Positions 34,586 through 37,813 of a DNA stretch of 64,000 bases are shown one piece after another. A program made the translations under genes and the position numbers. Position 1 is the stretch's first letter. Each line of letters begins with the position of its first letter. The notes under the pieces were generated by a model. That model was given only the letters and a program-made list of their open reading frames with translations, made no database searches and had not been told where the DNA came from. Source of the DNA: Mycoplana rhizolycopersici (GTDB lineage Bacteria; Pseudomonadota; Alphaproteobacteria; Rhizobiales; Rhizobiaceae); the NCBI RefSeq assembly GCF_013378445.1, contig NZ_JABXYK010000015.1, positions 38,862 to 102,861 on the forward strand. Direction: 5' to 3'.

Positions 34586-35137
34586 TCAGCACCGTCCAAA
34601 TTTTTTCGCAATCGAGCGCAGTCCTCTATGCAACGCCACGCGCACAGCCGTTTCAGTCATGCCATATTTCGCGGCCGTTTCTCCGATCGAATGGCCCTCG
34701 ATTGAAATTGCCGCGACCACCGAACGCTGGCCCGGCGCCAGTCCGTCCAGAACCCGGCCGATCTCGCGGTCGCTCACCGTTTCCGCCTCCGCCTGGGCTA
34801 GCGTCTCGGCGAGCTCGCCGATCTCGATTTCCACGCGGCGGCCGCGCTTGCGGAAGGCATCGATCAGCTTGAAGCGCGCGATCGCAAAGATCCAGGGCAG
34901 GACCGGCGCATCGACAATCCATGTATGCCGCTTCGTATGGATGGCCAGAAGCGTTTCCTGCACGATATCCTCCGGGTCGACGCCACCCTGCACGATCTTG
35001 CGTCGCGCGAAGCCGCGCACGATGGCGGCAGTGCGCGTCAGAAAGGCCGCATAGGCCTTTTCGTCTCCCGCAATCGCGGCCTGCAGCAGCATGGCGAGCT
35101 CTTTTTCGTCCTGGCCGCTCAACCTCATGTCTCCCAT
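34586..35137 (-). CDS. sigF: ECF sigma factor (SigF-like, NrsF-partnered)
   Basis: A 183-residue sigma-70-family factor: region 2 (AFLTRTAAIVRGFARRKI, DPEDIVQETLLAIH, PWIFAIARFKLIDAFRKR) and region 4 (GRVLDGLAPGQRSVVAA, IGETAAKYGMTETAVRVALHRG). Two starts are possible: 35137 or the Met at 35128. It is divergent from the bufferin operon and coupled to NrsF, the arrangement known for SigF-controlled bufferin genes. Confidence 0.85.
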   Translation of the reverse strand: MGDMRLSGQDEKELAMLLQAAIAGDEKAYAAFLTRTAAIVRGFARRKIVQGGVDPEDIVQETLLAIHTKRHTWIVDAPVLPWIFAIARFKLIDAFRKRGRRVEIEIGELAETLAQAEAETVSDREIGRVLDGLAPGQRSVVAAISIEGHSIGETAAKYGMTETAVRVALHRGLRSIAKKFGRC

Positions 35138-35162
35138 TCGCGCCCGGTGGCCACCTTGTTAC
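35137..35162 (-). promoter_or_regulatory. Candidate ECF promoter for the sigma gene
   Basis: On the minus strand GTAACA, 16 bases, CGAA. The same pair occurs before bufA1 on the other strand. Because the CGAA overlaps the first possible start codon, a leaderless or 35128 start is implied if this promoter is real. Confidence 0.4.
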
Positions 35163-35228
35163 GCGGCAGCCGAAATATTGTCCAATGAAGCCCACATGGC
35201 GATCACGAACTCGTGTTCGCGGCAGGCC

Positions 35229-35253
35229 GTAACATCAGGGCCCTCCAATCGAA
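35229..35253 (+). promoter_or_regulatory. Candidate ECF promoter for the bufferin operon
   Basis: GTAACA (35229-35234), 15 bases, CGAA (35250-35253), about 55 bp before the precursor gene. It resembles the GTAAC/CGAA promoter I recall for SigF-type ECF factors and mirrors the site before the sigma gene. Confidence 0.55.
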
Positions 35254-35307
35254 GACAGAAGTACGCAGCCGATGATCGGCCTGCGGACATCTAAGAGGAG
35301 ATCATCC

Positions 35308-35595
35308 ATGAACCGTTCCACGCTTACGCTCGCGCTCGCCGGCTCGCTTGCAAGTGCAATCGCATCCGCCTCCTTCGCCGCACCGCTCGCACCGGAAAAG
35401 ATGGCGGGCAACGAGAAGTGCTATGGCATCGCCCTGAAGGGCCAGAACGATTGCGCAGCCGGCCCCGGCACCACCTGCGCAGGCACCTCGACCATGGATT
35501 ATCAGGGCAATGCATGGAAAGCCGTCCCGGCCGGCACCTGCACCTCGATGAACGTCGATGGCCACAAGGGCATGCTGGAGCCTGTGAAAAGCTGA
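35308..35595 (+). CDS. bufA1: DUF2282 bufferin precursor peptide
   Basis: A 95-residue small protein: a Sec-type signal peptide to about residue 25 (ASASFAAP) and a mature part with four conserved Cys in EKCYG, NDCAAG, TTCAG and GTCTS contexts. This is the DUF2282 bufferin-1 layout; in known cases core Cys are converted to thiooxazoles by the DUF692/DUF2063 pair and the peptide sequesters copper in the periplasm. AGAGGAG lies upstream. It is the first gene of the operon. Confidence 0.85.
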   Translation: MNRSTLTLALAGSLASAIASASFAAPLAPEKMAGNEKCYGIALKGQNDCAAGPGTTCAGTSTMDYQGNAWKAVPAGTCTSMNVDGHKGMLEPVKS

Positions 35596-35658
35596 ACCTC
35601 GATAGGAGGCCCGGCATGCCGGGTCTCCGTCTCATCCGTCAATATCGGGAGAACAGCA

Positions 35659-36540
35659 ATGACCGTTTCAGCAAACCGTGCGACCGCCTTGCCGCAACGC
35701 GCCGGCCTCGGCCTCAAGCCGGAGCATTACGAAACCATTCTCGTCACCAGGCCGGATGTCGGCTTTTTCGAGGTCCATGCCGAGAACTACATGGGCGCCG
35801 GCGGCCCGCCGCATCGCTATCTCGAAGCGGTCGCGGATCTCTATCCACTGTCGCTTCATGGCGTCGGCTTGTCGATCGGCGCGTCGCGCGATCTCGACAA
35901 GGAACATCTGAAACGGCTTCGTGTCCTCATCGATCGTTACCGGCCGCAGAGCTTTTCGGAACATCTGGCATGGTCGACCCACGATACCGGCTTTCTCAAC
36001 GACCTTCTGCCGTTGCCCTATACGGCTGAAACGCTGGCGCGTGTCATCGACCATGTCGATGAGACCCAGCAATGGCTCGGCCGGCAAATGTTGCTCGAAA
36101 ATCCGTCGACCTACCTGTTGTTCTCCGAGAGCACGATCGATGAAGTGGATTTCCTGGCCGCCATCGCCAACCGAACCGGATGCGGGCTGCTGCTCGATGT
36201 CAACAACGTCATGGTTTCGGCCGTGAACCACCGTCTCGACCCGATTGCCTATATCGACCGTTTCCCGGTCGAGCTGGTCGGTGAAATCCACCTGGCCGGC
36301 TATGACGAGACTGTCGACTACGTCGGTGACCGATTGCTGATCGACGCCCATGGCAGCGCCGTCAGAACCGATGTGGTGGAGCTTTATCGACATACTCTGT
36401 CACGGAGCGGCCCCCTGCCGACGTTGATCGAGTGGGACAACGACGTTCCGGATTTTGCCACCCTTAACGCGGAAGCAGTCCGCGCCGATGCCGTGCTGAC
36501 TGCCGCAGCCGTGGCTCGCGGCGCCACCCGGGCGGCATGA
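35659..36540 (+). CDS. bufB1: DUF692 multinuclear iron RiPP oxygenase (MbnB-like)
   Basis: A 293-residue TIM-barrel protein of the DUF692/MbnB family. Iron-ligand motifs include FFEVHAENY, SEHLAWS, LENPSTY, LLDVNNV, HLAGYDE, DAHG and LIEWDND. With its DUF2063 partner it would oxidise Cys of the precursor peptide. It overlaps the partner gene by ATGA, supporting a complex. Confidence 0.9.
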   Translation: MTVSANRATALPQRAGLGLKPEHYETILVTRPDVGFFEVHAENYMGAGGPPHRYLEAVADLYPLSLHGVGLSIGASRDLDKEHLKRLRVLIDRYRPQSFSEHLAWSTHDTGFLNDLLPLPYTAETLARVIDHVDETQQWLGRQMLLENPSTYLLFSESTIDEVDFLAAIANRTGCGLLLDVNNVMVSAVNHRLDPIAYIDRFPVELVGEIHLAGYDETVDYVGDRLLIDAHGSAVRTDVVELYRHTLSRSGPLPTLIEWDNDVPDFATLNAEAVRADAVLTAAAVARGATRAA

Positions 36541-37319
36541 CCATGGGCTTCAACGAAAGTCAGAGTGCCTTCGCCGCCGCGCTGCTCGATCCGGGCCTGC
36601 CGCTTCCGCAAGGCATCACGACCGCTCGCGGCGTAACCGATCCATTGCGCTTCGCCGTCTACCGCAACAATGTCTATGTTGGACTGACGACAGCGCTGGG
36701 TCAGCGTTTCCCGGTGACGAAACGACTGGTCGGCTCCGAATTCTTTGCCGGCATGGCCCGTACCTACGCCGCTGATCACAAGCCGGCCACTCCGCTGATC
36801 ATTCACTATGGCGATGATTTCCCCGATTTCATCGCAGCGTTTCCCCCCGCAGCGTCACTTGCCTATCTGCCAGATGTCGCTCGCATCGAGGTCGCCTGGA
36901 CCCGAGCCTACCATGCCGCGGACAGATTGCCGCTCGATGTCGCCAAAATTGCTGCCGTGCCGCCCGAACGAATTGCCGAGATGTCGCTTGTCCCGCATCC
37001 GTCGGCCGGGCTCGTCCGGTCGGACTTTCCGGCCGGCACCATCTGGAGCGCCCATCAGGGCGAGGCCGTGGCGCCCGTCACCGAATGGCGAGCGGAGGCG
37101 GTACTGGTCGTACGGCCGGCCATGCATGTCGAAATTCGTTTCCTGCCACCAGGGGACGCTGCATTCGCGGCCTGCCTTCTTGAGGGCACCACCCTCGGCA
37201 CAGCGGCACAGAAGGCATTCGCCGCCGCCCCGGATTTCGATTTCGGATCGGCGTTGATTGGCCTTGTCGGCCTCGGCGCATTCAGCGCCTTCGAAGCTTT
37301 TGAAGGGAAACTTCCATGA
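36537..37319 (+). CDS. bufC1: DUF2063 partner protein of the DUF692 enzyme (MbnC-like)
   Basis: A 260-residue protein with an N-terminal DUF2063 domain (ESQSAFAAALLDPGLPLP, FAVYRNNVYVGLTTALGQRFPVTKRLVG) that binds the RiPP precursor and presents it to the oxygenase, and a longer C-terminal half. It is coupled on both sides by ATGA overlaps. Confidence 0.88.
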   Translation: MTMGFNESQSAFAAALLDPGLPLPQGITTARGVTDPLRFAVYRNNVYVGLTTALGQRFPVTKRLVGSEFFAGMARTYAADHKPATPLIIHYGDDFPDFIAAFPPAASLAYLPDVARIEVAWTRAYHAADRLPLDVAKIAAVPPERIAEMSLVPHPSAGLVRSDFPAGTIWSAHQGEAVAPVTEWRAEAVLVVRPAMHVEIRFLPPGDAAFAACLLEGTTLGTAAQKAFAAAPDFDFGSALIGLVGLGAFSAFEAFEGKLP

Positions 37320-37813
37320 CCATCGAACTCGCTTCCTCCCGCGATGGCAGCACTGCACTCGTCTCGCTTCATCGTCGCGCCGAAGGCCTGCTCGCCGCCA
37401 TTCCACCGTCGCTACCGCTGCTGGCACTGCGCATCGGCCTGGCAATCCCGTTCTTCAAGTCGGGACTAACGAAGTGGGACGGGTTTTTGACCCTTTCGAC
37501 AGGCGCCAGATATCTGTTCGAGCAGGAATTCAAGCTGCATATATTCGGCAGCCAGATCCCCTATCCCCTGCCGTTGACCATGGCGGCGGCGGCCGGGATC
37601 GCCGAACTTGTTTTGCCGATCCTGTTGGTCCTGGGCCTTTTCACCCGCTATGCGGCGCTTGGCCTGCTGGCGATGACGGCGGTGATCCAGCTCACCATTC
37701 CGGAAGGCTGGTCCAATTTCCATCTTCCCTGGGCCGCCATGGCGCTGACCCTTGCCGTCTACGGCGGCGGCAAGATCGCACTTGACCCCCTCATCAAACT
37801 GCGTCGAGATTGA
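37316..37813 (+). CDS. bufD1: DoxX-family membrane protein of the bufferin operon
   Basis: A 165-residue protein with four hydrophobic segments (LALRIGLAIPFFKSGLTKW, ITELVLPILLVLGLF-like region, and two more), the DoxX/DUF417-like fold common as the last gene of bufferin operons. Its job is unknown; it may supply redox equivalents or help export. Coupled to the preceding gene by ATGA. Confidence 0.82.
   Translation: MTIELASSRDGSTALVSLHRRAEGLLAAIPPSLPLLALRIGLAIPFFKSGLTKWDGFLTLSTGARYLFEQEFKLHIFGSQIPYPLPLTMAAAAGIAELVLPILLVLGLFTRYAALGLLAMTAVIQLTIPEGWSNFHLPWAAMALTLAVYGGGKIALDPLIKLRRD

Follow-up and report, generated by a model that had tools for sequence, protein, structure and literature searches.

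What does a small cluster that pairs a cysteine-containing peptide gene with a divergent sigma/anti-sigma gene pair do for its host, and what switches it on? Bufferins form a large family of copper-binding peptides that was recognised recently, and a cluster of this kind lies in the 64,000-nucleotide stretch of the Mycoplana rhizolycopersici genome analysed here (contig 15; hereafter the window). With a probability of about 0.82, we propose that it is a Buf1-type bufferin cluster beside an ECF16 (extracytoplasmic function) sigma factor/NrsF pair, making a copper-buffering peptide whose production is switched by stress. The locus is not a new kind of system, because Sinorhizobium meliloti and Caulobacter already show its layout. 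The parts worth following up are, above all, a palindrome upstream of the bufferin promoter and, in addition, the separability of the sigma/NrsF pair from the cassette that it adjoins. Throughout, statements about published systems refer to passages of the papers cited.

The locus comprises six genes with intact frames, arranged as two divergent units, and in profile searches all six exceed the curated Pfam cut-offs. On the plus strand, bufA1 (35308..35595) encodes a DUF2282 bufferin precursor of 95 amino acids with four cysteines (PF10048, 88.1 bits, cut-off 22.4), the hydrophobic N-terminus of which resembles, by eye, a Sec signal peptide. The next gene, bufB1 (35659..36540), encodes a multinuclear non-haem iron oxidative enzyme (MNIO, DUF692; PF05114 MbnB_TglH_ChrH, 341.3 bits, cut-off 25) that also passes the bufferin-specific NCBIfam model NF050167 MNIO_BufB (377 bits, cut-off 310) and matches the solved DUF692 protein 3bww in sequence (E 1.4e-44). 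It is followed by bufC1 (36537..37319), for a DUF2063 partner protein (PME type 1; PF09836, 90.1 bits, cut-off 27.2), and by the gene for a DoxX/HvfX-like membrane protein (37316..37813; PF07681, 62.5 bits, cut-off 23.6). The minus strand carries an ECF sigma factor gene of the SigF/RpoE7/EcfF kind (34586..35137; Sigma70_r2 and Sigma70_r4_2 over cut-off; NF009165, 239.5 bits, cut-off 198) and nrsF (33946..34584), for a DUF1109/NrsF anti-sigma factor (PF06532, 190 bits, cut-off 26.8, over residues 17-212). A search of the source genome found a single copy each of MNIO, DUF2282 and NrsF. A sequence-only reading of the window had described this divergent layout, with a four-cysteine DUF2282 precursor and with DUF692 and DUF2063 proteins, and the profiles confirm all of these. 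The interval it gave, 34586-37813, covers the operon and the sigma gene but omits nrsF, and the overlap that it saw along the whole operon exists at the MNIO/DUF2063 and DUF2063/DoxX junctions (4 bases each), whereas the precursor gene ends 63 bases before the MNIO gene.

Both units are predicted to be read from promoters of one type. Pattern scanning places the bufferin-operon promoter at 35229..35253 on the plus strand (GTAAC-N16-CGAA) and the sigma-nrsF promoter at 35137..35162 on the minus strand (GTAAC-N17-CGAA). Each fits the ECF16/SigF motif GTAAC-N16/17-CGAA, the form predicted for S. meliloti RpoE7 promoters (PMC6180224); the Caulobacter SigF motif is GTAACC-N16-CGAA (PMC3511200). The sigma frame opens with an ATG (35137) that overlaps the -10 element, so that translation probably begins instead at a later ATG (35128); for EcfF a shorter product was likewise deduced, there from a mapped start site (PMC3420878). 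A genome-wide regulon was considered and rejected: GTAAC-N14..18-CGAA has 91 matches in the source genome and the reversed pattern outnumbers it with 179, so none can be read from the motif alone.

Conserved cysteines mark both the peptide and its putative switch. The four cysteine columns of bufA hold Cys in 146 of 146 aligned rows, and among 50 aligned NrsF rows from loci with an adjacent pair, all have Cys129 and 49 have Cys179. OsrA and AbcS have cysteines at these same two positions (PMC3420878, PMC8315932); in Bradyrhizobium OsrA, interaction with the sigma factor depends on C129, and the response to H2O2 on C179 (PMC3420878). The residues conserved in DoxX are Arg, Ser, Glu, His and Trp, its alignment contains no conserved Cys, and its AlphaFold2 model (mean predicted local distance difference test score 93.4) yields weak structural leads. 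The genes, their families, the invariant cysteines, the two matching promoters and a layout that recurs among relatives are direct observations, and the profiles, promoter motifs and conserved residues together support the earlier assignment to a bufferin cluster of the Buf1 type that adjoins a SigF/NrsF pair.

By analogy with Caulobacter, Sinorhizobium and Bradyrhizobium, we propose how the parts may work together. Bufferins are reported to sequester copper via Cys-derived thiooxazoles (PMC12452194; see also PMC12668002), and for thiooxazole peptides an absorbance at roughly 305 nm has been reported (PMC12668002). Here, the MNIO and its DUF2063 partner would likely convert some of the four precursor cysteines into such copper-binding groups, and the predicted destination of the peptide is the periplasm, where it would buffer copper. 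Periplasmic metal or oxidant stress would release the sigma factor from NrsF, which may be inactivated through its second conserved cysteine (Cys179 here). The freed sigma factor would then transcribe the bufferin cluster and, in an autoregulatory loop, its own operon. DoxX is the least certain part of this proposal. Our guess is that it could be a quinone-linked membrane protein serving peptide maturation or redox recycling.

We compared the occurrence of the promoter motif with that of NrsF in four groups of loci. The paired group contains 51 loci (the window, 19 from a draw on genomes of its taxonomic family and 31 chosen by similarity to the window). A second group, with NrsF elsewhere in the genome, contains 23 (14 from the family draw and nine by similarity; two are the same locus). 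The no-NrsF group samples family genomes that lack NrsF over the cut-off (60 of their 78 listed places), and 13 loci with a sigma gene downstream of doxX form the fourth. Of one set of 80 loci, 51 were grouped and 19 beta- or gammaproteobacterial and 10 other alphaproteobacterial loci were left out. Within 410 bp upstream of bufA, the strict motif GTAAC-N15..18-CGAA is present in 34/51 paired loci, 14/23 with NrsF elsewhere, 0/60 without NrsF and 12/13 with the sigma gene downstream, and in none of the four groups in the reversed-sequence control. When CGTA is accepted as well as CGAA, and duplicates and short rows are removed, the counts become 44/49, 16/22, 0/59 and 12/13, with 0, 1, 1 and 0 in the reversed control. 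Five of the six motif-less rows with NrsF elsewhere are second operons of genomes that also hold a paired operon, and these five form one clade with two no-NrsF rows. Nine of the 10 left-out alphaproteobacterial loci have no motif, and the tenth, L068, which has adjoining sigma and NrsF hits, has one. Three left-out loci with NrsF elsewhere in the genome (L020, L026 and L032) are without the motif, and genomic NrsF alone therefore does not imply the motif at the bufferin operon.

Several observations weigh against the reading that we propose. At the level of narrow equivalog models, NrsF does not reach NCBIfam AntiSigF_NrsF (92.7, cut-off 300) and is a PF06532 family member outside it; likewise, the DUF2063 protein does not reach HvfC (43.2, cut-off 142), nor the DoxX protein matur_HvfX_fam (54.7, cut-off 80). 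The promoter motif becomes unspecific once a mismatch is allowed, with 46, 17, 14 and 13 loci in the four groups (in the order above) against 4, 7, 10 and 1 in the reversed control, that is, 14/60 against 10/60 where NrsF is absent, and only the strict motif is therefore informative. Even with CGTA accepted, the motif is missing in 5 of 49 rows that have a neighbouring pair. NrsF presence switches just 4 times across the BufB tree, and phylogenetically independent pairs for motif and NrsF number only 3 on well-supported (starred) branches and 4 on all branches, with 1.7 on average in favour and none against, which is not significant. The association is consistent one way (no NrsF, no motif) and is confounded by ancestry. 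Finally, promoter fusions in S. meliloti did not respond to H2O2, CdCl2 or K2CrO4 (PMC6180224), copper not being among the agents in that account.

Between the two promoters lies the palindrome TCACGAACTCGTGT (35203..35216), a candidate operator identified by pattern scan and conservation. It is the sole exact match to TCACG-N4-CGTGW in the window, and aligning the window with related cassettes showed that the block ATCACGAA-TCGTGTT, which precedes the -35 element, hardly varies. When up to one mismatch is tolerated, the 290 bp preceding bufA contain TCACG-N4-CGTGA in 26/51 paired loci (0.63 expected from shuffles), 9/22 with NrsF elsewhere (0.27), 19/60 without NrsF (0.80) and 4/13 with the sigma gene downstream (0.20); at up to two mismatches these counts, all inflated by relatedness, are 33 (8.2), 17 (3.2), 50 (10.4) and 7 (2.0). 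An unbiased scan, in which all 4-mer inverted repeats were ranked per group, put CACG-N4-CGTG first in the paired group (21/51, next 11) and TCAC-N6-GTGA first in the no-NrsF group (20/60, next 9). The two are jointly first where NrsF is elsewhere (6/22 each, next 5), and with the sigma gene downstream a different repeat leads (6/13), CACG-N4-CGTG occurring 4 times. The S. meliloti Ak57 promoter has a similar palindrome, TCACGAAAGCGTGT, upstream of its -35 element. In Rhizobiaceae and relatives, the palindrome thus occurs in bufA promoters of the sigma type and in sigma-independent ones. In the latter, no-NrsF loci, the upstream same-strand frame reads, on inspection, as a threonine aldolase in 49/60 and not as a regulator. 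Many of these loci (L204-L263, mostly behind the threonine-aldolase-like frame) share, by eye, TTGATTTCC downstream of the palindrome.

The reach of the element is limited. It is absent, at two mismatches, from 18/18 beta- and gammaproteobacterial loci (of 19, one lacking bufA), and it is missing at the usual place in R. lusitanum-type paired loci with a CGTA -10 element. That it might be common to all alphaproteobacterial bufferin promoters was considered and rejected: 1/10 left-out loci match with at most one mismatch and 4/10 with at most two, and so few matches led us to narrow its scope to Rhizobiaceae and relatives. In the source genome, WTCACGNNNNCGTGW has 8 matches against 2 for the reversed control. 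The bufA site accounts for one of the 8, and a single place is counted twice, once per strand, which leaves six other places. All six overlap open frames of about 100 residues or more, and the contig 5 place is in addition 179 bp ahead of an rpoH-like frame (by eye). We do not conclude a palindrome regulon.

The palindrome, which lies upstream of the bufA promoter, is probably the binding site of a second regulator. Among the papers listed by literature searches, mostly from outside subscription journals, none concerned the palindrome at bufferin promoters or sigma-less cassettes. Should the palindrome mark a common regulator, it would point to a sensor governing copper buffering across many soil- and plant-associated bacteria, even where SigF/NrsF is absent.

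The sigma/NrsF pair and the four-gene cassette are separable. In a survey of 297 genomes of the window's taxonomic family, DUF2282 is present in 157, NrsF over the cut-off in 107 and both in 69 (Fisher p 0.0036, relatedness ignored). Of the 157 genomes with DUF2282, 21 have no listed place; among the listed places, 58 in 52/297 genomes lie within 5 kb of NrsF, 55 of them divergent, with a gap of 839-983 bp in 46/55 and of 874 bp in the window. The closest plasmid cassettes by DNA (ten records) match the four-gene cassette at 78.5-85.9% identity, and the match begins only at window position 35061-35198. Sigma-less cassettes on Rhizobium, Neorhizobium and Agrobacterium plasmids (e.g. pRle248e) are of the window's four-gene type. 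In four that we inspected, no sigma gene or nrsF adjoins the cassette, the promoter is retained and the leader aligns up to the start codon. A diverged stretch in the R. binae cassette (L084 4960-5270) aligns with the start and promoter of the window's sigma gene, which suggests that a neighbouring pair was lost there.

A search for NrsF in the genomes or records of 29 loci found it in 25; it was not found in the plasmid records pRle248e, pNgVX and pAtCFBP7129a, for which only those records were covered, nor in one metagenome-assembled genome. Each of four Rhizobium genomes with sigma-less cassettes has one NrsF, on a different contig, and on R. binae p1 NrsF is ~57 kb from the cassette. Across the BufB tree, the label of motif with NrsF elsewhere requires 12 changes, at least 6 of them on starred branches, so that pair and cassette seem to have separated or come together on several occasions. 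In R. bangladeshense (L149), the gene divergent from the distant pair codes for a small MXKDX-repeat peptide (TIGR02953, 46.7 bits, cut-off 41), and in two Devosia genomes b561 and MsrP-like genes take this place. Among five Rhizobium distant-pair stretches (L149-L152, L158), MsrP-like or b561 sequence occurs only as short pieces in four, and no such pieces were found in L151. Such distant pairs may have been retained for the sake of the bufferin cassette.

Other arrangements were also seen. In Devosia marina, one of the genomes with NrsF elsewhere, NrsF also stands beside a further bufA-bufB stretch without a sigma hit (L139). In Mesorhizobium, Aminobacter and others the sigma gene directly follows doxX (L025, L028, L031, L033, L044, L051, L052, L057, L063, L069, L071, L074 and L077), and in six genomes of this type a more diverged NrsF follows the sigma gene (L140-L142, L146-L148).

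Palindrome and separability suggest a tentative history, to which we give somewhat less than even odds. In Rhizobiaceae and relatives, a sigma-independent regulator acting at TCACG-N4-CGTGA may be the older control of copper buffering, and the ECF16 pair a detachable unit that cassettes have gained, lost or borrowed in trans from a different stress system within the cell, the oxidant-repair genes of that system now decaying in some Rhizobium. Separability would also make the NrsF signal testable, through the question of whether a pair-less cassette follows the resident pair.

What the switch senses and what the peptide buffers bear on the alternatives to a copper function. The same cluster might serve mainly against oxidative stress (peroxide, hypochlorite), with copper a side aspect; oxidants would then react with NrsF Cys179, and the bufferin would act as a thiol sink or as a guard against oxidant-released copper. 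The need for OsrA C179 in the H2O2 response, described above, fits this proposal, as does the Brucella ECF16 pair, which answers hypochlorous acid and drives a methionine-rich peptide gene and a methionine sulfoxide reductase gene (PMC8315932), and so do the distant pairs beside a methionine-rich MXKDX peptide gene or b561/MsrP-like genes. We nevertheless consider it unlikely, at about one chance in four. In Caulobacter, sigF-dependent genes are not induced by agents that generate reactive oxygen (PMC3511200), whereas copper induces the SigF regulon and a sigF mutant shows sensitivity to copper (PMC8224329), and the S. meliloti fusions were silent to H2O2.

That the cluster serves another soft metal (gold, silver, chromium or cadmium) and not copper appears improbable. 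In Cupriavidus, gold and silver as well as copper upregulate the homologous gig cluster (PMC8224329), and Caulobacter SigF targets rise under chromium and cadmium (PMC3511200), but the Caulobacter sigF mutant is more sensitive to copper and not to chromate or cadmium (PMC8224329), and bufferin 1 is reported to bind copper (PMC12452194). The sequence-only reading had called both the role of DoxX and the signal of NrsF unsolved. This holds for DoxX; for NrsF, by contrast, the copper, chromium and cadmium responses of Caulobacter and the H2O2 response through OsrA C179 are known. Zinc, which it had named beside copper, finds no support as a signal in the literature passages, no search having been aimed at it. 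That the unit is a recently arrived silent passenger is highly improbable, for although a mobile-element remnant abuts nrsF and the window's BufB groups with other Rhizobium cassettes and not with four rows of its own genus, all six frames are intact, both promoters match and the conserved residues are retained.

The remnant in question is of an IS5-family transposase (33706..33843, plus strand). A blastn search with 33480-33960 matched annotated IS5 transposases at 75.8-79.0% identity over query positions 214-364, and the frame at 33706-33843 has no Pfam match. It closely follows the 3' end of nrsF, with the cytochrome bd genes on its other side, and hints that the unit came with a mobile element or was flanked by one. 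In the BufB phylogeny, the window's protein groups with plasmid and genome cassettes of other Rhizobium, while the own-genus rows (L264, L265, L266 and L267, from three other genomes) fall elsewhere, which suggests that the window's cassette was acquired separately from those of its genus relatives. RepB matches were found on contigs 4 and 10 and not on contig 15. The genes cydA and cydB, for a cytochrome bd oxidase, adjoin the unit (31094-33491). Cytochrome bd is a copper-free oxidase, here beside a copper buffer. We rejected CydAB as part of the system because cydA and cydB together occur within the flanks (up to ~6 kb) in only 1/85 relatives' loci.

The locus has close counterparts among known systems. 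In S. meliloti, the RpoE7/EcfR7 pair (SMb20531-20532) is divergent from four co-regulated genes (SMb20527-20530), DUF692 and DUF2063 among them, matching the window's layout in a rhizobium (Lang 2018, PMC6180224). A pSymA copy, in strain Ak57, is annotated with NrsF, sigma, DUF2282 and DoxX in the order of the window. The S. meliloti sigma/NrsF stretch shares ~65% DNA identity with the window over 78% of the query, and we found no difference in layout between S. meliloti and the window. The appeal of the locus as a clean rhizobial test case is correspondingly weak, since the S. meliloti system has this layout and identified targets (PMC6180224). The ECF16 pairs EcfF-OsrA of Bradyrhizobium and BcrS-AbcS of Brucella likewise combine a sigma factor with an NrsF-type antisigma factor, but the targets described for them are Msr-type and methionine-rich peptide genes and not a bufferin cluster (PMC3420878, PMC8315932). 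The prototype is the SigF-NrsF/bufferin 1 locus of Caulobacter (CC3252-CC3257), which has the same six families, the same layout and the two conserved NrsF cysteines (PMC3511200). Caulobacter SigF additionally drives a second DUF2282-DUF692-DUF2063 operon and the MsrPQ genes (PMC3511200, PMC8224329), whereas the search of the window's source genome yielded a single DUF2282 and a single MNIO. Buf1 clusters with sigma and NrsF genes have been reported before (PMC12452194), and the locus described here is a complete, ordinary bufferin-SigF/NrsF arrangement of that kind.

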